A DNA stretch of 40,464 nucleotides, from NCBI GenBank assembly GCA_903850915.1, contig CAINMV010000026.1, positions 1-40,464 of the forward strand. Reading direction: 5' to 3'. Made by a program: the position numbers and the translations under genes. The DNA is from an uncultured Bacteroidota bacterium. Its GTDB lineage: Bacteria; Bacteroidota; Bacteroidia; UKL13-3. The notes under the pieces were generated by a model. That model did not search any database, had not been told where the DNA came from, and saw nothing but the letters and a program-made list of their open reading frames with translations. Below, piece by piece: positions 16,473 through 37,368 of this stretch (the stretch's first letter is position 1; each line of letters starts with the position of its first letter).

Positions 16473-16555
16473 TGGAAATGGGATAAAGGTTCGCGAATAT
16501 AACAAATTATCCACAATAAAATATGCCATTTAGTATCATTTTTAACATATCATTT

Positions 16556-16579
16556 ATAGACATCTGTTAACATGTCTAT
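16556..16579. promoter_or_regulatory. Palindrome upstream of the M23 operon, possible operator
   Basis: Two perfect 8-bp arms (ATAGACAT / ATGTCTAT on the coding strand) flank an 8-nt centre, which overlaps the palindrome TGTTAACA. It lies about 85 bp before the M23 start and is not followed by a T-run on either strand, so a terminator is unlikely. A binding site for a dimeric regulator is plausible but unproven. Confidence 0.3.
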
Positions 16580-16608
16580 AATTATGGATTTACAATAAAA
16601 TAAAAAAA

Positions 16609-16632
16609 CCGTTTCGAGATAACCCGAAACGG
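16609..16632 (-). terminator. Rho-independent terminator of the OmpA-family gene
   Basis: An 8-bp stem (CCGTTTCG / CGAAACGG) with an 8-nt loop is followed on the minus strand by a T-run. It lies 21 bp past the stop of the OmpA-family gene at 16654. Confidence 0.85.
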
Positions 16633-16653
16633 CAATAAATCTTAAAAATATGC

Positions 16654-17496
16654 TTAGTTTTTTGGAACCATCAACTTGAAAAATTGATCCAATTGAGGAA
16701 TAATAACGATACGGGTACGACGGTTCAAAGCACGATCAGCTTCAGTTTCGTTAGATCTTAAAGGAATATACTCGCTTCTACCTGCTGCAATAATACGAGA
16801 AGGATCTACGGCAAATTCTGTTTGCAATACACGTACCACTGAGGTGGCGCGCAATACGCTTAAGTCCCAGTTATCTTTAACAAACTTGGCTTTCATTGGC
16901 TTATTATCCGTATGACCTTCAACCATAAATTGCAAGTCAGGTTGTGCCTTTAATACCGCAGCTACTTTACCTAAAACCTCTTTTGCTCTTGGACTTATAT
17001 CATAACTTCCGCTGTTAAACATTAGCTTGTCAGAAACAGAAATAAACACTGCACTACCTTCAACTTTTATTTGAACGTCGGTATCATTAATATCTTTTAG
17101 GGCACCTTTTAAATTTAACACCAACGACATGTTCAATGAGTCTTTGCGAGCTAACTCCGATTGCAGTCCTTTTATGTATGATTCCTTGGCATTAATGTTC
17201 TCCAAAGATTTTTTTATGCTTTCTGATTGCGACTCTGTAATCACAGATAAGCTTGATAATTGATTTAATAAAATAGAACTTTTATCCTTAACGTTTGCCA
17301 ATTCGGCCTCTAAACTACTAATTTTATTGCTTTGCTTTTCGCGTTCCGACAGGCATAATGCCAAATCAGTGTTTGTCCTATCCCAAGTGGTTTTTAATTC
17401 ATCATATTTCTTTATTTCAAGAGCATACTTTTTCTTGGTAACACAGCTTGTGAAAACTAGGGTAATTAAAACTAGGAGTAAATATTTTCTTTGCAT
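16654..17496 (-). CDS. OmpA-family lipoprotein (peptidoglycan-binding)
   Basis: The ATG at 17496 gives 280 residues with lipobox VFTSC (cysteine 18). The frame from 17544 adds a non-signal leader. The lipid anchor is followed by a helical, probably coiled-coil region (about 25-135) with heptad-like Leu/Ile and charged residues. The OmpA/MotB C-terminal domain covers about 150-265, with the peptidoglycan-binding signature GHTDNKP (194-200) and NRRTRI (258-263). It likely tethers the outer membrane to peptidoglycan or serves as a structural partner for an envelope complex. It forms a single-gene unit, with its own terminator downstream. Confidence 0.92.
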   Translation of the reverse strand: MQRKYLLLVLITLVFTSCVTKKKYALEIKKYDELKTTWDRTNTDLALCLSEREKQSNKISSLEAELANVKDKSSILLNQLSSLSVITESQSESIKKSLENINAKESYIKGLQSELARKDSLNMSLVLNLKGALKDINDTDVQIKVEGSAVFISVSDKLMFNSGSYDISPRAKEVLGKVAAVLKAQPDLQFMVEGHTDNKPMKAKFVKDNWDLSVLRATSVVRVLQTEFAVDPSRIIAAGRSEYIPLRSNETEADRALNRRTRIVIIPQLDQFFKLMVPKN

Positions 17497-17622
17497 TGCA
17501 AGGTTAGGTTTTTTAATGAAATGCAAAGGTACGCAATTCAACAACCTTCCAAATAATAAACACTGAAAAAGAATTCAAAAAAGAATGTGGATAAATAAGA
17601 GAAGTCTAAATTATTATCAAAA

Positions 17623-17640
17623 AACTAAAACGATTTAGTT
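17623..17640 (-). terminator. Weak terminator of the M48/YidD locus
   Basis: A 7-bp AT-rich stem (AACTAAA / TTTAGTT) with a 4-nt loop is followed on the minus strand by a run of T, 16 bp past the stop of the barrel protein at 17656. This marks the likely end of the unit that starts near 26310. Confidence 0.55.
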
Positions 17641-17655
17641 GAACAAAAATAAATA

Positions 17656-18423
17656 TTAAAAAGGCAAACCGATAGTGAACTTATAATTGAACCAATTATT
17701 GCGTATTATTTTGTTTTTGATTGAGGTTTCTAAATCATAAAATTCACTTTTCTTTATTATAAATGAGTTATTAAGAACATCCAACTGTGGGAAATTTAAA
17801 GCTTGAAATACATATGGAAATGAAATCTCCACTCTAAATAAAACTGATTTTTTTGTAATAAAACTTCGGCCAATGCCAGCACTTAATCCATAAAAACTAG
17901 CTTTACCGTTAGAAGTATACAGTGAATTTCCTGGGTTTAGCAATAATTGAGCTGAATCTAATCTATATTTAGTATAGGTGGCTCCAATAAAAAAGTAATT
18001 TCCAACAGGTGCAGGCGACATATTGGATTGAAAAAAACGCAAGTATGGCATAAAGCTAACACACGATAAATTAACAGGATTTGGCACTAAACTATAGGTT
18101 CCATTAATTATGCGAGTGTTAAAGCGATTTTCTATTACAATGACATTACGATGGAAATCTGTTTCCATTCCGAGAGATAGATAATTTTTTACTGCATATT
18201 CAAGGTTTATGCTTGATCGGGAAGAAATATTGATTAAATGTTTATTATAGCTATAGGAATCACCAAAATCTTGATACCCCCTTTTAGATGTAATATCTTC
18301 CATGAGGAAATTAAATGCGTATCCTAAATTAACAGAAAATCGTTTGCCTAGATAACCACTTGCATTTTGCGCATTCGCTAGCAAGCTAAATTGCATACTC
18401 AATATTAGCAATACTTTTCTCAT
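17656..18423 (-). CDS. Outer-membrane beta-barrel protein, paralogue of 23175-23936
   Basis: This 255-residue protein has a signal peptide (1-18, ending ANAQ), alternating-hydrophobic strands and a C-terminal phenylalanine (IGLPF), which together suggest a small outer-membrane barrel. It shares with the protein at 23175-23936 the N-terminal SGYLGKRFSV, the central MSPAPVGNY, the conserved stretch KKSVLFRVEISFPYV, and the end NNWFNYKFTIG. The family is not recognised and the barrel is inferred from sequence pattern only. The gene begins 4 bp after the M48-like protease at 18428-20782, so coexpression is very likely. It may assist in folding or anchoring the protease, or be its target. Confidence 0.7.
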   Translation of the reverse strand: MRKVLLILSMQFSLLANAQNASGYLGKRFSVNLGYAFNFLMEDITSKRGYQDFGDSYSYNKHLINISSRSSINLEYAVKNYLSLGMETDFHRNVIVIENRFNTRIINGTYSLVPNPVNLSCVSFMPYLRFFQSNMSPAPVGNYFFIGATYTKYRLDSAQLLLNPGNSLYTSNGKASFYGLSAGIGRSFITKKSVLFRVEISFPYVFQALNFPQLDVLNNSFIIKKSEFYDLETSIKNKIIRNNWFNYKFTIGLPF

Positions 18424-18427
18424 GACA

Positions 18428-20782
18428 TTAATATGTTTTAATTCGATTTAGAAGATGGTAAATATTGGAATTAATATACCCAGGAGTTGCCTTGCCTTTA
18501 ACCTGCTTGGAATAGTTTACCACAAAGTCATCACGTTCGCTATTATAAAGAATGGCATTTACATTTGATTGATACCCCCTTGACTTTAAACGCATATAAG
18601 CAATAGGCGTGGCGGGACCGTATATGCAATTTAGAGGTATTTTGTCAATCACATAATCTGAAACTTCACTTCTCGTTTTCTCTGTTTCCAAACCGACCAT
18701 TAAAAAATTAGAGCTTCCGTATTTTTCAGTTAATGCTCTAATAGCCATTAAATCGGTGGAAACACAGCCAATGGCTCGCTTGAAAAAATTCTCATATAAA
18801 CAATCGTTGATTAATGCAATATCGTTAAGCTTATCAGCATCAATTTGTTCTAAATCAATCCCACTAATAATTTCCGAATTATTGAATATCTTCTTGGAAG
18901 AAAGAATAAGAGCCTGATTCAAATCTTGCCCCTTTTGTTCCGATATTATAGGGTTATAACGACTATCGCCATTCGAATAAAAGTAATAAGGATTAACTAG
19001 AAGCACTTTGTTTTTTTCAATGCAAGGTATTAAAGTTGTATTTAAAGGTAAATCAACTGGAGGCTTGCTCGTGGCCGATTTGTATATTTCCGAAGTGTTT
19101 TCATCAACCTGGGCTAATAGTAGGCGCTCATAAACTCCTTTAAAAGTGGTATCCGACTCAAACCAATAAATTAGTGATTTCTTTATGTAAGGAGGACGTT
19201 TAACTTTGGCATTAACTAACGGTTTTTCTTCGACGTCTACTTTTTTCTTTTTAGACTTACTGTCTTTTTTAACCACAGGCGTTTCAACATCATCCTCAAC
19301 TTCGTTATCATTTAATGTTTTACGAATTATTCGCGCACGAACAGTGTCGGTGTAACTTCGATAAAAAACGGGCGTAGCTTTCTTCTCATGCACTGTTATA
19401 AAACTTTGCATTAAGGAACTACATATTAAATCTAATTCTTTATCCTCTGGATGATCAGCTTTAAGCTTCCAACAATAGTTTAAAGCAACAACATTAACCC
19501 CTTGTGCATTTAATTTTCCAAAGAGCAAAACCAATTGCTTAAAGCTACCCGTTTGCCCTTTAGAATTTATATGTATCTTATTGAAATCGTCTGCATTGGA
19601 ATATTTCGCAAACCCATATAAAGCCTTGGCTATACATTTTTTAAGATAGAGGCTATTTGGTTCACCTTTTAATAGTACCATGGAGGAGTAAATAGCCTTT
19701 TCAAAATCGCCATTTAATATGGACAATCGAGGTAACTCAAATCGACAAATTTTACGCGCTAGTAAAAAAGAAGTTTCAGAAACAAGCGCGTTACTTCGGA
19801 ATTCATCATTAGCAAAATCAACCATAATATCTTTCACTTTATTCAAACGTTCATCAGCATTGGTTTCCGTTAATTTAACTACATACTCCGTTTCAATAGG
19901 GGTGTTTTCTTCTTCCTCTTCTTCGTCGTCTAATATTTTTTTCTTCTTTACTACATTTATTGGGGACGAATTTAACTTAAGTAAACTTGGACTATCCAAG
20001 ACAAAGAAATTAGACGGAATTTTCAAGGTACCTATTTCGAAAAAGGAAGGCGAAAAAACGATAGAATCGAAAGGAGTATTAGGATTGTCAGGTGCCTTAA
20101 TTGCCGCAAGTACCGCTGATATTTTATAGGTAGAAGACGCAATTAAATCAAAACCAAGCTCATCGGCTTCTAATTCTTGAGTTTTAGTATAAGTATTACG
20201 AGATAAAAATGCATCCTCTACGTTTCGATTAAAGTATCGATTGTATCCTGTTTGGTAATGTGAATTATCAATACTTGAAGTAGGCTTGTGTTTCTTTAAA
20301 AAATGCACATATTCATGGGCCAAGATAAATGCCAATTCGGCTTCATTATGAAGTCGGGCAAATAGCCCCATCGTTAAAAATATCACACCTTGAGGTGAGG
20401 AATATGATGCAACATTGCTTGAACGAATTAAACATACAATAATATTGCGTTTAGATTCGCGATGTTCTAATACCTTCTGCATCACTAGGTTTAAATAGTT
20501 ACCAACGGTATCATTAAATATAACCTTGCCACTTTTTATGAAGTTGTTGAATTCGTATGCACTAGCTAGCTCGTAATCCTTAATTTCTTGTATTTCAACT
20601 TTTGATTTATCAACAGGTATTTTTAAAATTGTTTGCTGGTAATAATCGAAGGGGGCCGCAATAAAAACCTTAGGCAAATCTCCTCTTGATTTTAAAGTAG
20701 TATAATTGGAAAAGTCAATTTGCTGAGAATTAACTTGATAAAGACATAATATAAAGCAAAAGAATAGAAGTATATTTTTCAT
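18428..20782 (-). CDS. M48-like zinc metallopeptidase, paralogue of 23941-26310
   Basis: This 784-residue protein has a signal peptide (1-19). The zinc motif HEYVH is at 156-160 in LAFILAHEYVHFLKKH, with the third ligand likely E203 in ELEADE, which is the M48 pattern (HEXXH plus EXXXD). Membrane segments usual for HtpX and Ste24 are lacking, so it resembles periplasmic BepA-type proteases. The loop that in many M48 members reads THP is not present here: the aligned segment near 303-312 is KLTETNADER. Acidic and lysine-rich low-complexity regions occur around 280-300 and 505-530. The C-terminal third is unique to this pair. It forms a cassette with the barrel gene 4 bp downstream. The target is unknown. 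Confidence 0.85.
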   Translation of the reverse strand: MKNILLFFCFILCLYQVNSQQIDFSNYTTLKSRGDLPKVFIAAPFDYYQQTILKIPVDKSKVEIQEIKDYELASAYEFNNFIKSGKVIFNDTVGNYLNLVMQKVLEHRESKRNIIVCLIRSSNVASYSSPQGVIFLTMGLFARLHNEAELAFILAHEYVHFLKKHKPTSSIDNSHYQTGYNRYFNRNVEDAFLSRNTYTKTQELEADELGFDLIASSTYKISAVLAAIKAPDNPNTPFDSIVFSPSFFEIGTLKIPSNFFVLDSPSLLKLNSSPINVVKKKKILDDEEEEEENTPIETEYVVKLTETNADERLNKVKDIMVDFANDEFRSNALVSETSFLLARKICRFELPRLSILNGDFEKAIYSSMVLLKGEPNSLYLKKCIAKALYGFAKYSNADDFNKIHINSKGQTGSFKQLVLLFGKLNAQGVNVVALNYCWKLKADHPEDKELDLICSSLMQSFITVHEKKATPVFYRSYTDTVRARIIRKTLNDNEVEDDVETPVVKKDSKSKKKKVDVEEKPLVNAKVKRPPYIKKSLIYWFESDTTFKGVYERLLLAQVDENTSEIYKSATSKPPVDLPLNTTLIPCIEKNKVLLVNPYYFYSNGDSRYNPIISEQKGQDLNQALILSSKKIFNNSEIISGIDLEQIDADKLNDIALINDCLYENFFKRAIGCVSTDLMAIRALTEKYGSSNFLMVGLETEKTRSEVSDYVIDKIPLNCIYGPATPIAYMRLKSRGYQSNVNAILYNSERDDFVVNYSKQVKGKATPGYINSNIYHLLNRIKTY

Positions 20783-20835
20783 TTTGTTTTTTCATTCAAT
20801 CGTAAGACTCAAACCAGTATTGCATTAATGCGGTT

Positions 20836-20866
20836 AACAAATAAACATATAAATAATCGTAAAAGA
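20836..20866 (-). promoter_or_regulatory. Conserved upstream block of the second M48 gene, possible promoter
   Basis: About 55-85 bp before the start at 20782, the minus strand reads TCTTTTACGATTATTTATA, then ends in TTTGTT. The same 12-mer CGATTATTTATA, with matching flanks, occurs upstream of the paralogous gene (26395-26426). A TTTATTTG stretch is close to the Bacteroidota -7 consensus TAnnTTTG, with a T-rich block some 15-16 bp upstream. It is a likely promoter copied with the cassette. Confidence 0.45.
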
Positions 20867-20887
20867 AAACGATGCTTCCTAAATTAT

Positions 20888-21802
20888 TTACAAGACTAGA
20901 AGCATGCTCTGTAATTTTTCATTGTAGTTTTTTTTTAGGATGTAATTCCTTTTTTCAACCAAAAATTCCGATCTATACCTTCCCCCTCGATAAAATCTGG
21001 CGAAAAGCGGCAAACCAGCAAAAGCTGTTGCAAAATAATAGTGTTGATAAAATCCAAGTCCACTAAGCCCCAAAAAAGCAAGTTGAAATCCTGTATTTAA
21101 TAAACCTTCACCTACTTTACCTGCATAAATATAGCCAAGTCCTGGTAATATTGCATTCATTATTTTGGCTTTCTTTGGCGATTTTAAATGGGGTTGGCAG
21201 CGATGCGCATACACCGAATCGAGGCTGCGCAAGGTAGTTTTATCTAAATCATTAGTGTTTAATATGGAATACTTTGCTAGCAAAAGACTTGCATTATCCC
21301 ATTGCTCCAATTCATTTAATATTAAAATCTTTAGTGGAATATATTTCTTTAACTCTTCTACATTTAGTTTTTCCTCGTCTATTTTATCAAGCTGCAATTT
21401 TGCAAGTTCAAAGTTTTGCGCTAAATAGTAACACAATGCTGATTCAAAACTAACATTAAATTTATTTTCGGCATCCAATCCTGATGTAACTAATTCTGCA
21501 TAATTTACAGCTGCAGCGGCATAATCGGCCCTATATTTCAAGAAATCGGCCTTAGCTCGAAGCCAATAACTCTCATTTTCGGTATTTAATCCATTGAATA
21601 ATAGTCGATCATACGCGATTAAACTATCCTGGTATATCGCATAAAAACGAATAAAACTTGAATCCAACGAGTTTCTTTTGAAAGTAATATCACGTGAATA
21701 GGCAATAAATGCCTTTTTGGGGATGTAAGAAACATCACCCAATATAGAAGCATTACTCCAAAATAACAGCATTAATATGCTGTAAATTCGACAATATCTC
21801 AT
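20888..21802 (-). CDS. TPR-like protein with DUF5683-type C-terminal membrane domain
   Basis: This 304-residue protein has a probable signal peptide or anchor at 1-22, then a helical region with TPR-like repeats (about 45-190; YWLRAKADFLKYRADYAAAA is typical). At the C terminus is a membrane domain with the signature NAILPGLGYIYAGKVGEGLL, as in DUF5683/TM2-like proteins. It starts within the preceding gene: its ATG at 21802 lies 50 bp before that gene's stop at 21753, suggesting translational coupling. A shorter start at 21772 is possible. The neighbour at 21753-22646 has the same architecture, so the two are likely distant paralogues. The role is unknown. Confidence 0.75.
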   Translation of the reverse strand: MRYCRIYSILMLLFWSNASILGDVSYIPKKAFIAYSRDITFKRNSLDSSFIRFYAIYQDSLIAYDRLLFNGLNTENESYWLRAKADFLKYRADYAAAAVNYAELVTSGLDAENKFNVSFESALCYYLAQNFELAKLQLDKIDEEKLNVEELKKYIPLKILILNELEQWDNASLLLAKYSILNTNDLDKTTLRSLDSVYAHRCQPHLKSPKKAKIMNAILPGLGYIYAGKVGEGLLNTGFQLAFLGLSGLGFYQHYYFATAFAGLPLFARFYRGGRYRSEFLVEKRNYILKKNYNEKLQSMLLVL

Positions 21803-22646
21803 TGTTTATTCTCTTTTTGTTTCTTTGTTTAAAGGTATTTACACTTTTGATACTTCCAATAATATTTCCTAAATAAAACACAGAGAAGGCTGTTCCAAAA
21901 ACAAAAAATGGTATTGTTTTAAGATCAGTTTTGTGCACCACTCCTCCCATTTTTTTATATGATTCGTAGGTAATTAAACCATTTAAAAAAACCGGGATAA
22001 ATGTAGAAAAACATTGTTTATGATAACCAGCATAATATTTACCTAGTCCTGGAACAAAGGCAGATAAAATTCCGGCAACCGCTGGAGATTTATTTTTTTC
22101 TTTTAAAATCTCATTTTTACATTTCTTGAGTAGAATTTCATGTTGTGTTATCTTACTTTTATTTGATTTCATAAAACAAGCTAAACTATCATACTGGTAA
22201 AAATTTCTTTTAAGCAGGAAATAGGATGCTAAGTTTAAAGTTATTAAATCATCATATGTATTCGGCATTTTGGACAATGAAAGTAGCTCTTGCGTAGCAT
22301 GATCGTAATTAATTAGATTACCATAGTTCCAAGCATTATATATTTTTGCCGTGGTAAAGGAAGCTGAAGATAGCCTTATTTGGTTTAGAATTTTAATGGA
22401 AGAATCAAATTTGGCTTGGAATTGAAGAATCTTACCTTCCAACAAAAGCAACGTATCTATTTCATTTAAAGCAACGGTTTGCTTTTTTAAATTTTGCGCT
22501 GCTAATAAGGCTTCACTTAATTTACCTACACTTACTAAGTTCTGAACAAACTTTAATTCAAGTTGTAAATTAAAACTTTGCGCCTGAACCCGAGCACCAG
22601 CAAAGAGCATGTAAAGTACAAAAACACCATGAACTAATAATTTCAT
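21753..22646 (-). CDS. TPR-like protein with DUF5683-type C-terminal membrane domain
   Basis: The ATG at 22646 gives 297 residues with a signal peptide (MKLLVHGVFVLYMLFAGARV, then QAQ). A frame from 22694 overlaps the YidD gene and lacks a signal at its start. The body is helical with TPR-like spacing (about 25-180). The C terminus contains ILSAFVPGLGKYYAGYHKQC and two hydrophobic segments, the PGLGxxYAG pattern of DUF5683-type proteins, then a basic tail. It lies 25 bp after the YidD-like gene and overlaps the next gene by 50 bp. The matching neighbour and the shared context with YidD and the proteases point to a joint envelope role that is not yet defined. Confidence 0.78.
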   Translation of the reverse strand: MKLLVHGVFVLYMLFAGARVQAQSFNLQLELKFVQNLVSVGKLSEALLAAQNLKKQTVALNEIDTLLLLEGKILQFQAKFDSSIKILNQIRLSSASFTTAKIYNAWNYGNLINYDHATQELLSLSKMPNTYDDLITLNLASYFLLKRNFYQYDSLACFMKSNKSKITQHEILLKKCKNEILKEKNKSPAVAGILSAFVPGLGKYYAGYHKQCFSTFIPVFLNGLITYESYKKMGGVVHKTDLKTIPFFVFGTAFSVFYLGNIIGSIKSVNTFKQRNKKRINNEILSNLQHINAVILE

Positions 22647-22671
22647 AGCGTAGCAAAGCTTCGAATAACTT

Positions 22672-23121
22672 TTATCGGTACCACTCAATATCATCTATTA
22701 TTTTGTTGTTATCCGAATTTCTATCACTTTTCGGGTTCAAATCCTGTATTCCAAGCATAGAACAACGGCTTAACCTATCAGCAGTAAGTGTGATGCCTTT
22801 TATAAGCCCATATCGTCGTATCGCTGCTTTTGAAAACTCAGAACAACTTAGTTCGAAAGGACAACTGGCTGCTATTTGTGCTGAGACGTATTTTTGATAA
22901 ATAAAAAGCAACGACCCAAAGGATAAGGATACTGGGTTATAACGAATAATTTTGTTTTTTGAATTAAATTTCACAAAAGTCACAACACGATGGCTTTCAA
23001 AACGAGGTTCTTTAAATTCCACACTTCGCAATAGCACTCTATTGGCCGAGTCTAATTGGGCTTTGAGGGAAGATACCATAAATGTGAACCCAAGAAAAAA
23101 TACAACTCGAATTAATAGCAT
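22672..23121 (-). CDS. YidD-domain protein with an N-terminal signal peptide
   Basis: This 149-residue protein has a signal peptide (1-21, ending SLKAQ), about 40 further residues, and a YidD domain at about 65-130: FIYQKYVSAQIAASCPFELS, CSEFSKAAIRRYG, then GITLTADRLSRC. The conserved cysteine and aromatic pattern of YidD (membrane protein insertion efficiency factor) is kept. Classic YidD is a short cytoplasmic membrane-associated protein beside YidC. Here the signal peptide predicts an extracytoplasmic location and there is no yidC, rnpA or oxaA nearby. The genes on both sides encode envelope proteins, so it may have been recruited for a different task. It begins 53 bp after the barrel protein at 23175. 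Confidence 0.85.
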   Translation of the reverse strand: MLLIRVVFFLGFTFMVSSLKAQLDSANRVLLRSVEFKEPRFESHRVVTFVKFNSKNKIIRYNPVSLSFGSLLFIYQKYVSAQIAASCPFELSCSEFSKAAIRRYGLIKGITLTADRLSRCSMLGIQDLNPKSDRNSDNNKIIDDIEWYR

Positions 23122-23174
23122 ATTATATTTTATTTACCCCGAGTTTAGTATTGAAGTGCTTCACTGAAAATCGA

Positions 23175-23936
23175 TTAAAATGGTATACCAACAGTAATGT
23201 TATATTGAAACCAATTGTTAATTACAATTTTATTGCGTAAGGTTTTGCTTAAGCTCAATGAATAATCATGTAATTTCCTATAGTCAACATTCTGTTCATA
23301 ATCTGTTGTATAATATGCAGCTGGAAAAAAATGCAGAACATAGGGAAACGACATCTCTGTTTTAAGTAAAACACATTTTGCTAAAATAAAACTTCGTCCG
23401 AAACCAAAGGAAATATCGGTAAAGTTAAGTTTACCTTGACTTAGGTATAAATCTACATTTTGAAATTCCGGATAACTTGATAACGTAAGCATCGCAGATG
23501 ACAAATCGAGCATACTGTAGTTAATGCCTAAGGAAATATAATTACCTAAAGGTGCTGGCGACATACTTTTGTTATAAAATCGCACCACCGGATTAATATT
23601 TTTGCATTTTACATCATACGGCAAGCAATCATATCCTGGAGTATTGAAGGGATCAAATTTAGGAAACATCATTAAAATATTTTTATGATAAGAAAAATCC
23701 AAGCCAACACCCGTGTACTCTCCTATGGCATATTCGGCATTGAGATAAACACGTTTTGAAATACCTGGAATTATATAATAATTGTTTGCAGTTGAATAGT
23801 CGGAGGTTAAAAATGGAAAAACCCCAACACCCGTACTTACCGAAAATCGTTTTCCAAGGTAACCACTTGCTTTTTGACCGAACCCCGAAATAGCCCAAAA
23901 AAGAAAAACCGAAAAGATGATACTTGTTTTTTTCAT
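23175..23936 (-). CDS. Outer-membrane beta-barrel protein, paralogue of 17656-18423
   Basis: This 253-residue protein has a signal peptide (1-20, ending GFGQ), strand-rich sequence and a C-terminal phenylalanine (VGIPF). It shares with the 17656-18423 protein the N-terminal SGYLGKRFSV, MSPAPLGNY near the middle, the aligned stretch AKCVLLKTEMSFPYV, and NNWFQYNITVG at the end. The pattern fits a small outer-membrane barrel. No named family is recognised. It follows the M48-like protease by 4 bp, exactly as in the other cassette, which supports duplication of the pair as one unit. It precedes the YidD-domain gene by 53 bp. Confidence 0.72.
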   Translation of the reverse strand: MKKTSIIFSVFLFWAISGFGQKASGYLGKRFSVSTGVGVFPFLTSDYSTANNYYIIPGISKRVYLNAEYAIGEYTGVGLDFSYHKNILMMFPKFDPFNTPGYDCLPYDVKCKNINPVVRFYNKSMSPAPLGNYISLGINYSMLDLSSAMLTLSSYPEFQNVDLYLSQGKLNFTDISFGFGRSFILAKCVLLKTEMSFPYVLHFFPAAYYTTDYEQNVDYRKLHDYSLSLSKTLRNKIVINNWFQYNITVGIPF

Positions 23937-23940
23937 ATTT

Positions 23941-26310
23941 TTAATACGTTTTAACTCTTGATAAAATTTGATATAAATTTGATGTTAATGACGCCTGAGT
24001 GTCTTTGCCTCTAATTTGTTTATTATAACTTACCCTGAAATCGTCCAAATCGGTGTTATATAAAACTGTAAAAATGGAATATTCATAGGTTTTAGACATA
24101 CTCATAGTAACAAATAAAGGATAAAAAACCAAGGTATAACAACCCACACATTGCGTTCCTAGGGTGTTTAATTTCGTTTTCTCAATAGTCATACCAGTTA
24201 GAATAATATTAGAGGAATGGTATTTCTCAGCCACTTGTTTTACCAAACTGAGGTCGGTAGAAACCAATCCCACCCCACGTTTATTTAAATTCTCGAACAG
24301 GCAATCACGCAAAAGCGTTATTTCACTCAATTTCTCCGCTTCATCAATTTTCAATTGATCTTGATCTAAAACTTCATATTCGCTGAATGTTTTTCTAGCA
24401 ACATAATTCAATGCATCAGTGAAATTCGATTTATATTGTTCCGATTTTATAGCATCATATTTCCCTTGATCGTAATAAGAACGCTGCTCATAATAGGAGT
24501 AAAAAGGATCGATAAGAATTACCTTTCCATCTTTTACACAACGAATATCTGATTTATTTACTTTCAAATCGTCGCTATTTTTAGACTTTTCTTTGGCAAC
24601 TTTGGCCTTCTTTTTCTTTAAGTCTTTCATCTTTTCATTGTACAAATTGGCAAAGGCGGTATCCTTTTCAAACCAATATATAAAAGAGCGCTTAAAATAT
24701 TCTTTAACTTTTACCTTAGAGGTGCCTTCATCGTTACTATCTTCTTCCTCATTATCATTATCATTATTAGCTACCGTTTTTGCTTTTTTCGATTTGGTGG
24801 TTTTTACTGTTGCTTCCTCATCCCCATCCGTCTTTTCAGTTTCAGAGTCATCAATGGTTTTGCGCTTTATTTTCGGACCTATTGTATCGGCCAACGACTG
24901 ATAAAAAACATGTTTTTTGCGATCTTCATAGGAGAAAACGATACTTCGCATCATGGAGCGACAAATACTATTAAGCTCCTCGTCGTCTGGATTTTGGCTT
25001 CTTAGATCCCAGCAATAATTCATAGCCATAGCACTGATACCTTGCGACTTTAATTTCCCCATCATAAACACAAGTTGCTGAAAATGGCCTTGTGCATATT
25101 TTGATTTAATATGTGCATCATTAAAATGTCCGGTATTGCCATATTTAGCCATGCTATACAGCGATTTTGCGATAATTTTCTTGGCATATAAACTGTTCGG
25201 ATTGTCGTTAAGCAGCACCATGGCATGATACATGGCATATTCGTAGTCGCCATCGAGTAAATTAATTCTTGGTATCTCATACCGACACAATTTCTTAATA
25301 TACTTAAATGTAGCTTCAGAAACCAAGTAAAGACTTCTACTGCCGGAGTTTCCAAAGTCTTTAATTAAGGCATCCAACTTTTCGATTCGACTATCGGTGG
25401 ATGGATGCGTACTATATTTGTCTGATTCATCTTCACCCGCATCCTCATCATCATCCTTTTTTGAAGATGTTGATGTTCCTGAAGTAATTTTCTCGAATGC
25501 TTTCGGGTCCACCTTATCGTATTCATTTTTAAAGAAACCTTCAGGTAATTTAAAAGATCCTTTCTCAAAAAAAGAAGGCTTAAAGGTTACCGAATCGTAT
25601 GGCAGATAGTAATACCAAATGGTGTTTAATGCCGATGTGGCAGCCGAAATATCATAATTTGTTTTGGTGAACAAATCAAACCCTAATTCATCTGACTCCG
25701 ACTCTTGTTCTTTACTGAAATTCGCACGGCGTAAGTATTTATCATCAATGGAAGTGTTCCGATAATCACCTTTATTGTATTTTGCTTTTTTACTTTCTAT
25801 ATAATCATTGATACTGTGCTTTTTCAAGTAATGTATATATTCGTGCGACAAAACAAAAGCCAATTCCGCTTCAGAGTGCATTCGGGCGATGAGCCCCATA
25901 GTAACAAAAATAAGGCCTTTACCGGTAGCAAAAGCGTTAACCACTGAAGAACGTAGCACATAAACACGCACATTTTTCCTTTTCTCTCGTTGTTCCATTA
26001 GTTTATGCATAACGGCATTCACATAATTACTGATGGTGTCATTGAAAATCACTTTACCACTATGCAAAATATCATCGATTGCATAACTTGATTCAAGTTC
26101 ATAATCACGTAGGGCTTCCTTTTCAATTTTAGATTTATCTTTACTAATTTTCTTCTTCGCATCTTGGAATTTCTCCAATGAAGAGGTTGAAAATTCCTTG
26201 GGCAAATCACCACGCGACTTAATAGGAACGTAGTTATTGAAATCTACCGTTTGTGAATATCCTAGTTTTAACAAGGTTAAACACAGAAGGATTAGCAGTG
26301 ATTTATTCAT
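23941..26310 (-). CDS. M48-like zinc metallopeptidase, paralogue of 18428-20782
   Basis: The protein has 789 residues with a signal peptide (1-19, ending GYS). HEYIH lies at 156-160, the same positions as in the paralogue, and the third zinc ligand is probably E203 in ESESDE. Unlike the paralogue it keeps the M48-type loop THPSTDSRIE at 301-310. Acidic low-complexity sequence lies around 283-298, and a long acidic/lysine-rich linker at about 500-545. Both copies end in VLYNxxxDDFxVxYxKQxxGK followed by a helical tail. It probably acts in the periplasm on outer-membrane or misfolded proteins, as BepA does in E. coli, but the substrate here is unknown. It is the first gene of the locus. Confidence 0.87.
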   Translation of the reverse strand: MNKSLLILLCLTLLKLGYSQTVDFNNYVPIKSRGDLPKEFSTSSLEKFQDAKKKISKDKSKIEKEALRDYELESSYAIDDILHSGKVIFNDTISNYVNAVMHKLMEQREKRKNVRVYVLRSSVVNAFATGKGLIFVTMGLIARMHSEAELAFVLSHEYIHYLKKHSINDYIESKKAKYNKGDYRNTSIDDKYLRRANFSKEQESESDELGFDLFTKTNYDISAATSALNTIWYYYLPYDSVTFKPSFFEKGSFKLPEGFFKNEYDKVDPKAFEKITSGTSTSSKKDDDEDAGEDESDKYSTHPSTDSRIEKLDALIKDFGNSGSRSLYLVSEATFKYIKKLCRYEIPRINLLDGDYEYAMYHAMVLLNDNPNSLYAKKIIAKSLYSMAKYGNTGHFNDAHIKSKYAQGHFQQLVFMMGKLKSQGISAMAMNYCWDLRSQNPDDEELNSICRSMMRSIVFSYEDRKKHVFYQSLADTIGPKIKRKTIDDSETEKTDGDEEATVKTTKSKKAKTVANNDNDNEEEDSNDEGTSKVKVKEYFKRSFIYWFEKDTAFANLYNEKMKDLKKKKAKVAKEKSKNSDDLKVNKSDIRCVKDGKVILIDPFYSYYEQRSYYDQGKYDAIKSEQYKSNFTDALNYVARKTFSEYEVLDQDQLKIDEAEKLSEITLLRDCLFENLNKRGVGLVSTDLSLVKQVAEKYHSSNIILTGMTIEKTKLNTLGTQCVGCYTLVFYPLFVTMSMSKTYEYSIFTVLYNTDLDDFRVSYNKQIRGKDTQASLTSNLYQILSRVKTY

Positions 26311-26394
26311 TTGAAAGATGTTTAAAAAGATGTAAAAAAATAGTTAAAACCGAAGTTCATTATATTAGATCGTTAATAGGATTAAAGACCCAAA

Positions 26395-26426
26395 AACAAA
26401 GATTCAAGTATAAATAATCGCAAAGA
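26395..26426 (-). promoter_or_regulatory. Conserved upstream block of the first M48 gene, possible promoter
   Basis: About 85-115 bp before the start at 26310, the minus strand reads TCTTTGCGATTATTTATAC and then AATCTTTGTT. TTTG and AATCTTTG are spaced by 16 bp, near the Bacteroidota -33/-7 pattern (TTTG and TAnnTTTG). The block matches that before the paralogue (20836-20866) with small gaps. Confidence 0.45.
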
Positions 26427-26610
26427 CGTGAGCAAATATTAAATTGTCATAAATTTCCGGTTTGTTTAATTGGTCGAATAACGGAAAGACTCTTAGTAAA
26501 ATGGGAAACAGAACAATTCTAAATTAAATAGGAATACTAGGATAGCCAAGAAGTGTAAATTCCTTTTTATTGGCATTTTACGGAGTTTCGCTGTAGAAAA
26601 TGCTAAAATG

Positions 26611-26640
26611 AAAAAAGCCATCAAAAAATGATGACTTTTT
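26611..26640 (-). terminator. Rho-independent terminator of tRNA-Asp
   Basis: A hairpin of about 12 bp (AAAAAGTCATCA and TGATGGCTTTTT on the minus strand, with one G-U pair) directly follows the tRNA gene and ends in a T-run. Confidence 0.8.
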
Positions 26641-26642
26641 AG

Positions 26643-26716
26643 CGGACTGGACGGGACTCGAACCCGCGACCTCCGCCGTGACAGGGCGGCATTCTAACCA
26701 GCTGAACTACCAATCC
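26643..26716 (-). tRNA. tRNA-Asp (anticodon GTC)
   Basis: The 74-nt gene folds as a standard cloverleaf. The acceptor stem pairs GGATTGG with CCAGTCC, discriminator G. The anticodon stem is CCGCC / GGCGG around loop CTGTCAC, giving GTC. The T arm reads GCGGGTTCGAGTCCCGT. CCA is not encoded. It closely matches the typical tRNA-Asp of Bacteroidota. It is followed by a hairpin terminator and sits between two divergent units. Confidence 0.97.
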
Positions 26717-26911
26717 GTTTCTTCTGTTTTCAAAAGAGGTGCAAATATATAGGTTAGCTTCAATTCTAACAAATTTATAGTGAATATTATTGCAAATAAT
26801 TTAATTGGGTATTTTTACATTTAATAAATTATTTTCGCGGGCGCATACTTCAAAGGCATACGAGAAGATACTATAGCGTATTTTTATTAATTTCATTAAA
26901 AGATAACTTTT

Positions 26912-27859
26912 ATGTTCGACTTTGAGAAACCTATTGACGATATACTAGAACAAATTGAGAAGACGAAGCAAATTGCTGAAAAAAGTAAAATCGATTTAAG
27001 TGCTGCTGTGTTAGAATTGGAAGCGAAATTGGCGCAAACTCGCAAGCACGTATTCAGTAACTTAAATGCTTGGCAAAAAGTTCAGCTCTCGCGTCATCCT
27101 GATCGTCCATATACTATTGATTATATTAACGGCATCTGTGATGGTTTCATCGAACTTCATGGCGACCGAACCGTAAAAGATGACAAAGCGATGATTGGTG
27201 GTTTTGCGAGCATTGAAGGTCAAGGTGTAATGATAATTGGTCAGCAAAAAGGACGGAATACCAAATCACGACAATACCGCAATTTTGGCATGGCCAATCC
27301 TGAAGGGTATCGCAAAGCCTTGCGCTTAATGAAATTGGCGGAGAAATTTAATAAACCGGTAATCACATTTATAGATACTCCCGGTGCATCGCCAGGGCTT
27401 GAAGCAGAAGAACGAGGACAAGGAGAAGCTATTGCAAGAAATTTATTTGAGATGTCGGTATTAAAGGTGCCTGTAATATGTATTATTATTGGCGAAGGGG
27501 CCAGTGGCGGCGCCTTAGGAATAGGTATTGGCGACAAAGTGGTGATGTTGGAATTCACTTGGTATTCGGTGATATCACCGGAAAGCTGTTCAAGTATTCT
27601 TTGGCGCAGCTGGGATTTTAAGGAAACTGCTGCCGAAGCTTTGAAGCTCTCGGCTACAGATATGCTCGGAAATGGCTTAATCGACAAGGTAGTTAAGGAA
27701 CCTTTGGGTGGTGCTCACAACAATCCACAAGAAATGTTCGCAATTCTCAAAGCAGAAATATTAACGCTTCTCACAGAAATTAAGACTATGAGTGTCGACG
27801 AAATGGTTTCGAAACGAATCGAGAAATTTGCAGGAATGGGCGTGGTTCAGGAAATTTAA
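26912..27859 (+). CDS. accA: Acetyl-CoA carboxylase carboxyltransferase subunit alpha
   Basis: This 315-residue cytoplasmic protein matches AccA along its whole length. It transfers the carboxyl group from biotin carrier protein to acetyl-CoA to form malonyl-CoA, together with AccD. The start [20 protein letters not shown], then [23 protein letters not shown] and the oxyanion-hole segments [20 protein letters not shown] and [15 protein letters not shown] are diagnostic, and the length equals that of the family. AccD and the biotin enzymes are not in this window. It is a single gene on the plus strand with about 195 bp before it, holding only AT-rich spacer. Confidence 0.98.
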
Positions 27860-34971: not shown

Positions 34972-36165
34972 ATGAAAATAGTAGTACTAACCACGCGTAT
35001 TCCTTATCCATTAATGGATGGTGGAAGTATTGCCACCATGCAAATGCTGCAAAGCTTGATTAACTGTGGTTATGTGGTGAAATTATTGTCATTAAACACC
35101 AACAAACACTTTGTAGAAAAGGGAAGCCTCCCCCCAATTTTTAATACCTTAGCTATAGAATCCACTGATATTGATACAAATGTCAACTTTAAAGATGCTT
35201 TTAAAAATTTATTTAGCGATAAAAGCTATAACGCCAATCGTTTTTATAGTGATGACTTTCGGCAATTAATTGTTCAAACGTTAGTGCGATCAGAGTACGA
35301 TGTGGTCCTCTTTGATGGCATTTACTCGGCAGTGTATTTAAATACTGTAAAGCAATTTAGCAAGGCGAAACGGATTTTAAGGCCGCATAATATTGAGCAC
35401 GATATTTGGATAAAAGCAGCACTCGATGAATCATTTCCGAAAAATTGGTACATCAGTTTGCTCGCAAAAAAATTAAAGAAATTTGAATATTTAAGTTGGC
35501 CTTTGTTCGATGCCATAATACCAATTTCTATCATCGATGAATTCACAATTAGAAAAGCAGCCAATACAACTCAAAAAATCCGAACCTTACCCACCGCCAT
35601 CGATGTAAAAAAGATTATAGCCAACAATGCTTTGGCCGACTGCAAAAAAATATTCCATCTTGGAAGCATGGATTGGGCACCAAACCAGCAGGCGATGGAG
35701 TGGTTTCTGTCCATGGTTTGGAATAAAGTTGAAAGCGCGTGCAAAGGACAATTTTTTATGGCTGGAAGAAATATGCCAGAGGATTTCTTTAAATATGCCA
35801 ACGATAGAATAAAAGTAGAGGGTGACATTGAAAATGTTTATGAATTTATGAATGACAAACAAATAATGGTGGTACCATTATTTGCGGGTAGTGGCATACG
35901 TATTAAAATCTTGGAAGGAATGGCCGCCGCCAAAACAATTATCACCACCTCACTAGGCGTGCAAGGTATTGACGCCTACGATAAAGAACACGTCATGATA
36001 GCAAACAATCCTTTGGCCTTTGCTGATGCTATTATTTGGTGTGTTAAAAATGAAACAAAATGCAAAGAAATTGGCAATAATGCACGTAAATTAATTGAAG
36101 AAAAATACAGCATAGAGAATTTCGAGGAAGAATTAAGTAAGTTTATAGCCGAAGTAACTAGTTAA
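34972..36165 (+). CDS. Glycosyltransferase (GT4-like)
   Basis: This 397-residue cytoplasmic or membrane-associated GT-B enzyme starts with MKIVVLTTRIPYPLMDGGSI, carries RPHNIEHDIW in the first half and IRTLPTAIDV at the domain junction. The C-terminal donor domain includes FHLGSMDWAPNQQAMEWFL and GSGIRIKILEGMAAAKTII, where the last segment holds the conserved glutamate pattern of GT4. It probably transfers a sugar to an envelope glycan. The donor and acceptor are unknown. It begins 4 bp after the LptF/LptG-like gene and is followed 6 bp later by a second enzyme of the same kind. Confidence 0.9.
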   Translation: MKIVVLTTRIPYPLMDGGSIATMQMLQSLINCGYVVKLLSLNTNKHFVEKGSLPPIFNTLAIESTDIDTNVNFKDAFKNLFSDKSYNANRFYSDDFRQLIVQTLVRSEYDVVLFDGIYSAVYLNTVKQFSKAKRILRPHNIEHDIWIKAALDESFPKNWYISLLAKKLKKFEYLSWPLFDAIIPISIIDEFTIRKAANTTQKIRTLPTAIDVKKIIANNALADCKKIFHLGSMDWAPNQQAMEWFLSMVWNKVESACKGQFFMAGRNMPEDFFKYANDRIKVEGDIENVYEFMNDKQIMVVPLFAGSGIRIKILEGMAAAKTIITTSLGVQGIDAYDKEHVMIANNPLAFADAIIWCVKNETKCKEIGNNARKLIEEKYSIENFEEELSKFIAEVTS

Positions 36166-36171
36166 ATAATT

Positions 36172-37368
36172 TTGAAAATCTTATATATAACGTCGCGCTT
36201 CCCTTATCCGCTCGAAAAAGGCGATAAGTTACGTGCGTATAATCAGATAAAAGAGCTTTCAAAAACACATGAAATCATACTTTATTCCATCACCGAAAAT
36301 GTGATTCAGGAACGATGGGACCAAGAAATAAACCGCATTACCTATTACCACGAGATCTCATTTTTAAAAAAGTGGCAACGATATGCAAACTTTTTTCGAG
36401 GTATTTTCAACGCTCTACCCTTTCAAATAAATTATTTTTATAACAAAAAAAGAAAAAAGCAAATTGAAAAGTTAATCGTTCGCTTTCAACCTGATCTGGT
36501 TTTTTGTCAGCTTATACGGATGAGTGAATATATAAAAGATAGCAGAATACCCAAAGTTTTAGATTACATGGATGCCTTTAGTAAAGGAGTTCAAAGGCGC
36601 ATGGAAAATCAACCTTTCTATATCAAAAAACTATTCGAGGTTGAATATCGTCGTCTACTCAGCTATGAAGGGGCTATATTTCAACATTTTGATGCCGCCG
36701 TAATAATTTCAAATGCAGATAAAGAACTAATACCAGTAATTAACAATAATGAAATTGAAATAATTAGAAACGGCGTTAATTTTGATTACTTCAAGCCTCA
36801 GCCAAATGTTATAAAAGAATATGATATTGTGTTTACCGGTAATATGAGTTACCCTCCTAATGTTTCTGCCGTTCTCTTTCTTCATAATGAAGTGCTGCCT
36901 TTATTAAAAGTTGCGCATCCTCAAATTAAAATTCTAATTGCAGGCGCTAATCCTTCGGCAAGGGTGAAAGAACTAAATGCATCTAATTTTGTTGTTACTG
37001 GATGGGTTGAGGATATAAATATCTATTACGACAAATCGAAAATATTTATAGCTCCAATGTTTATTGGTACTGGACTGCAAAATAAGCTATTAGAAGCTAT
37101 GGCTATGCGACTACCTTGTATTACATCGCCACTTGTTAATAAATCACTGGGCGCCGCGGCGCAGCATGAACTGTTAATTGCTGAAACCGCTGAGGAATAT
37201 GCACACTTTGTTATTCAATTACTTGGAAATTCTAACTTTGCTGACCAAGTTGCTTTAGATGGCTATAACTTTGTGACACAGAATTTTAGTTGGAGCAGCA
37301 CCACAGATCAACTAAACTTGATTTTTCAAAAGATAACCTATAATACTTCAACGTATAATCCATCATAG
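36172..37368 (+). CDS. Glycosyltransferase (GT4-like), TTG start
   Basis: This 398-residue GT-B enzyme starts MKILYITSRFPYPLEKGDKL with a TTG codon at 36172, which is the only start that keeps the complete N-terminal motif. The rest resembles the PEP-CTERM/EpsH1-associated sugar transferase group: IIRNGVNFDYF at the domain junction, then FTGNMSYPPNVSAVLFLHNE, and the donor-site GTGLQNKLLEAMAMRLPCIT. It likely shares its pathway with the enzyme 6 bp upstream, as their N termini are similar. The 3' end overlaps the converging metallo-hydrolase by 31 bp. Confidence 0.88.
   Translation: MKILYITSRFPYPLEKGDKLRAYNQIKELSKTHEIILYSITENVIQERWDQEINRITYYHEISFLKKWQRYANFFRGIFNALPFQINYFYNKKRKKQIEKLIVRFQPDLVFCQLIRMSEYIKDSRIPKVLDYMDAFSKGVQRRMENQPFYIKKLFEVEYRRLLSYEGAIFQHFDAAVIISNADKELIPVINNNEIEIIRNGVNFDYFKPQPNVIKEYDIVFTGNMSYPPNVSAVLFLHNEVLPLLKVAHPQIKILIAGANPSARVKELNASNFVVTGWVEDINIYYDKSKIFIAPMFIGTGLQNKLLEAMAMRLPCITSPLVNKSLGAAAQHELLIAETAEEYAHFVIQLLGNSNFADQVALDGYNFVTQNFSWSSTTDQLNLIFQKITYNTSTYNPS

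Follow-up and report, generated by a model that had tools for sequence, protein, structure and literature searches.

A conserved trio around a predicted exported YidD, and its likely but optional link to an M48 protease-barrel pair, in Bacteroidota

Do seven adjacent genes in an uncultured Bacteroidota bacterium form one cell envelope system, or do they combine separate modules? The genes occupy positions 17656 to 26310 of the window, by which we mean the whole stretch analyzed (40,464 nucleotides, contig CAINMV010000026.1, assembly GCA_903850915.1). A preliminary description gave them a joint job in the envelope. The envelope role is retained, on the basis of predicted leaders on most of the proteins, a BepA-like protease with a C-terminal domain that, in a model, resembles outer-membrane-associated folds, and a LolA-like partner in relatives. 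The single unit is not. A YidD paralogue and two tetratricopeptide repeat (TPR) proteins form one module (the trio), an M48 protease and a probable barrel protein form another (the M48-barrel pair), and in the genomes that we fetched the two were mostly apart. We therefore rejected the block as one seven-gene system as a general rule. The trio YidD-TPR1-TPR2 is conserved and nearly fixed in order, yet patchy in distribution, and a functional link between it and the M48-barrel pair is likely but optional.

All seven minus-strand open reading frames of the preliminary description were present. In order of transcription, with the possible terminator last, the features are:

23941 to 26310, minus strand: M48A, predicted exported BepA-like M48 metalloprotease with HExxH and the later Glu intact, a helical middle, and a PelC/CsgG-like C-terminal domain
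23175 to 23936, minus strand: barrel A, predicted exported protein of the GYxGKR family with a C-terminal Phe, a probable outer membrane beta-barrel (the barrel nature is inferred)
22672 to 23121, minus strand: secreted YidD paralogue, with a predicted leader ending in AQ, a YidD domain at residues 71 to 124, and Cys at 87, 93, and 120
21753 to 22694, minus strand: TPR1, TPR protein that has a PGxGK region in its C-terminal part and a single hydrophobic segment (261 to 279); the likely start is the ATG before the leader
20888 to 21802, minus strand: TPR2, the second of the TPR proteins, whose C-terminal region is weakly DUF5683-like and which has no hydrophobic segment above the threshold used
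18428 to 20782, minus strand: M48B, paralogue of M48A with the catalytic motif intact
17656 to 18423, minus strand: barrel B, paralogue of barrel A
17623 to 17640, minus strand: possible terminator, a weak AT-rich hairpin followed by T's

A nearly fixed trio around a predicted secreted YidD paralogue

YidD proteins are usually short, have no cleavable leader, and sit at the inner face of the cytoplasmic membrane, where they assist YidC/Sec in inserting membrane proteins. The window YidD departs from this form. It is 149 amino acids long and has a hydrophobic leader with an AQ site, which agrees with the signal peptide that had been predicted for it. It is over the cut-offs of both Pfam PF01809 (54.2 bits versus 27) and TIGR00278 (58.6 bits versus 40). 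The same genome has a second, short YidD on contig 9 (71 amino acids), which scored 106.5 bits against PF01809, compared with 55.6 for the window copy. Gln 22 and Cys 87, 93, and 120 were invariant in the secreted family (15/15 aligned rows). A simple measure found a hydrophobic leader core in 61 of 62 secreted copies but also in 4 of 10 short YidDs. Therefore, the leader call rests mainly on the added length and the conserved AQ site; AxAQ-like sites were found in 41/62 secreted copies and 0/10 short ones. A profile search of solved structures gave no match for the secreted family. Among 72,556 plasmid records, three matched the window YidD, over its C-terminal half only and at 34 to 37% identity.

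We examined conservation in a class sample of 295 Bacteroidia genomes and a phylum sample of 247 genomes. Among the matches listed, 70 genomes of the class sample had a secreted YidD, at 82 places, and a TPR1 match followed just downstream, on the same strand and within 2 kb, at 78 of them. These places were picked by hand as matches starting near the N terminus in a frame of about 120 amino acids or more without stops; G006 and the truncated G118 were kept as exceptions, and rows with only a YidD domain or with internal stops were dropped, some of them ambiguous (such as G117, G296, G093, G129, and G160). Of the four places without a downstream TPR gene, one was at a contig end (G193) and three were in members of a single family, f39. 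Two of these three, G111 and G144, have TPR matches elsewhere, on other contigs, and in the third, G072, a 975-amino-acid TPR protein adjoins YidD. The order YidD-TPR1-TPR2 was seen in our maps of 57 loci (window included) and in 52 complete modules. In the phylum sample, a secreted YidD was found in only 4/247 genomes (E up to 1e-20), counting the window's; two of the four were outside the class.

A further scan covered named genomes. We took the best 80 of 481 loci, found with a query from one branch of the family, and counted genes anywhere in each stretch; these loci are not independent of the other genomes analyzed. TPR genes were present in 66 of the 68 loci with a YidD frame of at least 115 amino acids and in none of the 12 with a shorter frame, a loosely matched control in which only 3 loci were labelled Bacteroidota and 9 were not. 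Both long-YidD loci without a TPR gene (L219 and L229) were at contig ends, and in L213, where the DNA is GC-rich, the 312-amino-acid YidD frame seems to have a false start. The hosts include Emticicia, Lacihabitans, Jiulongibacter, Marivirga, Cyclobacterium, Marinoscillum, and Mariniphaga, and also two metagenome-assembled genomes labelled Spirochaetes or Spirochaetaceae (L209 and L213).

Two side observations concern the spread of the module. A LolA-like gene and a secreted YidD occur together in metagenome-assembled genomes labelled Spirochaetaceae, Spirochaetes, and Neomarinimicrobiota (L209, L213, and L229); TPR genes are also present in L209 and L213, and the L229 locus stops at a contig end. 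At four loci, two secreted-YidD modules lie side by side, divergent in L160 and L196, in tandem in L173, and convergent in L204.

The two proteins encoded after YidD had been described as TPR/DUF5683-like. The DUF5683 part of that label is weak: TPR2 reached only 15.3 bits against PF18935 (cut-off, 26.7) and TPR1 had no match; among TPR2 relatives, 9 of 16 rows matched DUF5683 at E up to 0.05. A model of TPR1 gave only TPR-type structure matches, none of them at E up to 0.001.

Neighbours of the trio in relatives

Genes for LolA-like proteins accompany many of these modules. Among the named loci, 66 of the 68 with a long YidD have one (L166 and L212 do not), and the 12 with a short YidD have none. 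The LolA-like family (c3) was also near at least 32 of the 52 complete modules, and in 7 of 58 relatives, always adjoining the secreted YidD. Pfam matches at E up to 0.05 were to LolA_like for 10 of 23 members, to DUF4292 weakly for 3, and to LolA for 1, with a best E of 5.5e-05.

A second neighbour, k1, is a small hydrophobic gene whose product has a predicted leader and a conserved hydrophobic C-terminal region. Of the named loci, 56 of the 68 with a long YidD have it (three copies at L196), as against none of the 12 with a short one, and it was near some of the 52 modules. In the 58 relatives there were six k1 matches. Three adjoin the module, and three are on another contig of G050.

A third, c11, is a 555-amino-acid protein, predicted to be exported, that lies outside known families; its single match among solved structures in a profile search had an E value of 0.92. 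It adjoins six of the seven trio modules that are linked to an M48 gene, the window being the exception. In the class sample, 6 of 9 full-length c11 matches (over 200 bits) were beside a trio and 5 of 9 were beside an M48 gene. These counts became 4/7 and 3/7 without the two profile seeds. As a separate observation, three c11 genes stand in tandem in G016 (L147, 3878 to 8992), whose secreted YidD-TPR module lies some 9 kb away.

The M48-barrel pair

M48A and M48B were both over the Pfam M48 cut-off (78.0 and 41.2 bits versus 20.3), as expected from their description as M48-like proteases. H156, E157, H160, and E203 were invariant in the 21 rows aligned, and the later Glu is presumably a zinc ligand. 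An AlphaFold2 model of M48A (mean pLDDT, 80.2) was compared with known structures. Residues 67 to 363 matched BepA (Z 17.8, 197 aligned, rmsd 3.5). Residues 588 to 789, taken from the whole-protein model, matched PelC (Z 10.3, 125 aligned, rmsd 2.9) and also CsgG (Z 9.1), TolB (8.6), and PqiC (8.1), at sequence identities of about 6 to 10%. Foldseek alone gave nothing better than E 0.012 (GNA1162) for the C-terminal part. The model thus suggests that M48A is a BepA-like protease with a PelC/CsgG-like end.

A barrel-family gene lies directly downstream of 25 of the 34 M48 frames in the fetched loci, a total that counts one G003 gene as two pieces. The barrel label is favored by the family alignment and by the C-terminal Phe of both window copies, but not by Pfam; the family had no Pfam match over cut-off and no PDB match by profile search. 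From their sequences, barrels A and B are probable outer membrane beta-barrels.

The two cassettes had been described as homologous, and alignment bears this out. M48A and M48B are 40% identical over 791 columns, and barrels A and B are 36% identical over 266 columns (E 3e-46). As judged from these alignments, duplication of the cassette is far beyond chance. In the M48 tree, M48A and M48B are sisters (100/100) and stand apart from the M48s of three same-genus relatives.

Linkage between the trio and the M48-barrel pair

Co-occurrence of YidD and M48 genes in other genomes had been set as a test of a joint function. In the class sample, which is the fair sample for this purpose, an M48 gene was within 5 kb at 4 of the 82 secreted-YidD places among the matches listed: the window, G006, G028, and G201. 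Leaving the window out, three adjacencies were observed against 0.11 expected (P = 0.0002, or 0.006 when the two from the same genus were counted once). This chance estimate is rough, because it assumes uniform placement, uses rounded genome sizes, and corrects for relatedness in one genus only. Further adjacencies were found in G021, in G032, and, with a divergent M48, in G212. The complete absence of co-occurrence that would have spoken against a joint function was thus not observed.

In a tree of YidD-TPR sequences from 52 modules, the seven M48-linked modules fall in three places: the window alone; G006, G021, G028, and G032; and G201 and G212. With the starred branches accepted, at least three label changes are needed. 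This tree is biased for linkage, since L079, L082, L084, and L085 had been fetched as M48 loci and L144 for c11, and the window was the starting point. The M48s of the linked modules likewise fall in three places in the M48 tree.

Proposed pathway and alternatives

Among the loci that we saw, the commonest form of the module was k1 (as a small exported hydrophobic protein), LolA-like, secreted YidD, TPR1, and TPR2. We tentatively propose the following pathway, to which we give a little less than an even chance. After export to the periplasm, YidD would bind a membrane surface and assist either in inserting a hydrophobic client or in passing it on. The two TPR proteins would hold this client or a partner, with TPR1 probably anchored through its hydrophobic C-terminal segment. 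At loci that encode it, the LolA-like protein would ferry the client, for which k1 is one candidate, through the periplasm. Three lineages, the window's among them, would have gained an M48 protease as well, mostly with a barrel partner, for BepA-style quality control of the assembled product. The seven-gene block would then be a lineage-specific composite around a conserved envelope module, an idea that we hold with the same reserve. Gene linkage and domain content are established, as are the export signals at the level of sequence and the folds of the protease and its C-terminal domain at the level of models. Membrane attachment, direction, client, and contacts, and the service of one client by both modules, are what we infer from them.

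Envelope quality control is a natural reading of the M48 part because BepA provides precedents. One paper reports that BepA cleaves stalled barrels on BAM (PMC13067283). Another reports that a BepA-like protease of Bacteroides vulgatus rises or is induced when BamA is attacked (PMC8546649).

Several results weigh against the proposed pathway. The trio is patchy, as the class and phylum counts show. M48 genes were no more frequent in genomes with a secreted YidD (24/70) than in the others (63/225; P = 0.37, among the matches listed), where M48s were counted at E up to 1e-40, a threshold that misses divergent ones such as that of G212. The three label changes may represent one gain and two losses, and the window row is a long branch of unsure placement. 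We recognized no barrel-family gene beside the M48 of G201 or G212, and TPR2 had no clear hydrophobic segment over threshold. The resemblance to LolA is weak (one member scored 18.2 bits against a TIGR00547 cut-off of 112), and the LolA-like family had no PDB match by profile search. In the window's genome we did not find the LolA-like gene (E up to 1e-6), k1 (E up to 1e-5), or c11 (E up to 1e-20). Therefore, its version works without them or with unrecognized ones, and the LolA-like and small hydrophobic partners were invisible to the preliminary description for the same reason. Finally, there was no evidence of a client or of contacts between the products.

The flat genome-wide comparison is also what would be expected if the genes were unrelated neighbours, with the trio having entered, or been retained in, a duplicated M48-barrel locus and no job shared. 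The same is true of the 24 of 29 stretches fetched for M48 that had no secreted YidD, of the few secreted-YidD places with an M48 within 5 kb, and of G003, which at the same site has an M48-barrel pair without YidD, TPR, or second cassette. On the other side are the adjacency above chance, the three places that the linked modules occupy in both trees, and the positions of c11 beside the trio and beside M48. We regard unrelated neighbours as a serious but rather doubtful explanation. Another is that the operon makes and inserts small hydrophobic proteins of the k1 type. Here k1 would be the product and the LolA-like protein, YidD, and the TPR proteins its delivery machine, so that the block would be a surface-peptide system and not one for general quality control. 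The frequency of k1 at long-YidD loci, its copies at L196, and its leader and hydrophobic C-terminal region are in line with this. We nevertheless consider it unlikely, given that k1 was not found in the window's genome and that half of the matches in the 58 relatives were off-module. Many YidD-TPR loci also have no k1, and so k1 is not the sole client.

Unlikelier still is a BAM accessory, in which all products would serve outer membrane barrel assembly and the barrel proteins would act either as substrates or as subunits. The closeness of the M48 domain to BepA and the induction reported in B. vulgatus would suit it, but 45 of the 52 mapped YidD-TPR modules had no M48 neighbour, and the 80 named stretches contained one barrel match and no M48. 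The pathway proposed above is the one that we prefer. Separately, we rejected an anti-phage system as a candidate; seven proteins (five of the block's seven, barrels excluded, and two from a relative) were compared with PADLOC, and none matched at E up to 0.01.

Layout and history of the locus

The spacing within the block is as first described, with gaps of 4 bp (M48A to barrel A), 53 bp (barrel A to YidD), 105 bp (TPR2 to M48B), and 4 bp (M48B to barrel B) and a 50-bp overlap of TPR1 and TPR2. The 25-bp gap given between YidD and TPR1 requires TPR1 to start at an internal ATG immediately ahead of its leader; in its longest frame, TPR1 overlaps YidD by 23 bp. The weak terminator at about 17623 to 17640 is visible as a hairpin with T's after it but was unlisted by a hairpin scan needing at least three G-C pairs. 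A simple 19-residue hydrophobicity measure flagged leaders in four of the seven proteins (M48A, YidD, TPR1, and M48B) and not in barrel A, barrel B, or TPR2. By eye, a leader whose likely cleavage site carries Gln can be seen in six of the seven, all but TPR2. A sigma-70 promoter scan of 16500 to 27500 gave 39 matches versus 45.8 in shuffled sequence, and the Bacteroidota -7 word occurred 68 times in the window versus 64.4 by chance. Neither was in excess, and therefore transcription units are unreadable from the sequence.

The same site in G003, a genome of the same genus, has an M48-barrel pair followed by a gene for a 1911-amino-acid protein (L148, 2018 to 7753) that contains SprB repeats as well as a type IX secretion tail domain. 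In the window, the segment from YidD to barrel B and the OmpA-like gene after it occupy this place. The N-terminal part of the G003 M48 is 70% identical to M48A, whereas M48A and M48B are only about 40% identical. Therefore, sequence comparison suggests that the duplication probably predates the split from G003 and that the block was probably lost there, a history that is uncertain because the G003 M48 spans a contig break.

Other features of the window lie around the block. The OmpA-like gene (16654 to 17544), downstream of it, has a leader with a possible lipobox; it is missing from the G003 site too and may have been inserted or lost together with the block. Just upstream, a tRNA-Asp gene is immediately followed by a hairpin, one arm of which is T-rich (26612 to 26716). 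Farther away, two adjacent plus-strand genes (34972 to 37368; 397 and 398 amino acids) are in one similarity cluster and are likely to be a tandem duplication.

Comparison with known systems

The component families are already known, and the trio around an exported YidD is apparently undescribed. A literature search, confined to open-licence papers and mostly to their listings, found none describing an exported YidD, a TPR pair, and a LolA-like partner. It is possible, though we would not call it probable, that these genes make up an undescribed envelope assembly pathway in which exported YidD acts in the periplasm to insert or transfer a client, assisted by a LolA-like carrier, a pair of TPR proteins, and optionally a BepA-like protease with an outer-membrane-type domain. 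Its spread, patchy in Bacteroidia with single genomes of other phyla, is put forward just as cautiously. YidD is a small factor on the cytoplasmic side, and if the proposal is true, the same domain has been redeployed on the other side of the membrane. The seven genes point to an uncharacterized route of cell surface construction that some Bacteroidota may use, and they offer a concrete gene set for the open question of how these bacteria place proteins and lipoproteins there. Hosts of the trio include cultured environmental strains (Emticicia, Marivirga, Cyclobacterium, and Lacihabitans), which makes it experimentally accessible.

The window YidD resembles known YidD proteins (PF01809 and TIGR00278; insertion efficiency factor in E. 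coli, for which one review table cites Yu et al. 2011 [PMC8082313]) in having a domain over both cut-offs, with three Cys conserved in the secreted family. It differs in its leader, by which it should be periplasmic, in an extra C-terminal stretch, in its TPR neighbours, and in the LolA-like neighbour in relatives. The point shared with the Lol pathway is that LolA-like gene; its similarity to LolA is weak, and our searches of the window's genome did not turn it up.

BepA (YfgC) is closest to the window's M48 domain by fold and among the best matches by profile, where 3c37, a Geobacter-type M48 peptidase, scores higher. The NCBIfam equivalog cut-off for BepA is 570 bits, and the window M48s reached 43.4 and 29.5. 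BepA ends with its TPR domain, whereas in the M48A model a helical segment is followed by the PelC/CsgG-like domain (588 to 789), and the window M48s pair with a barrel-family gene. That last domain shares its modelled fold with the PelC/CsgG/TolB-N proteins, at the low identity given above, and differs from them in being fused to a protease.

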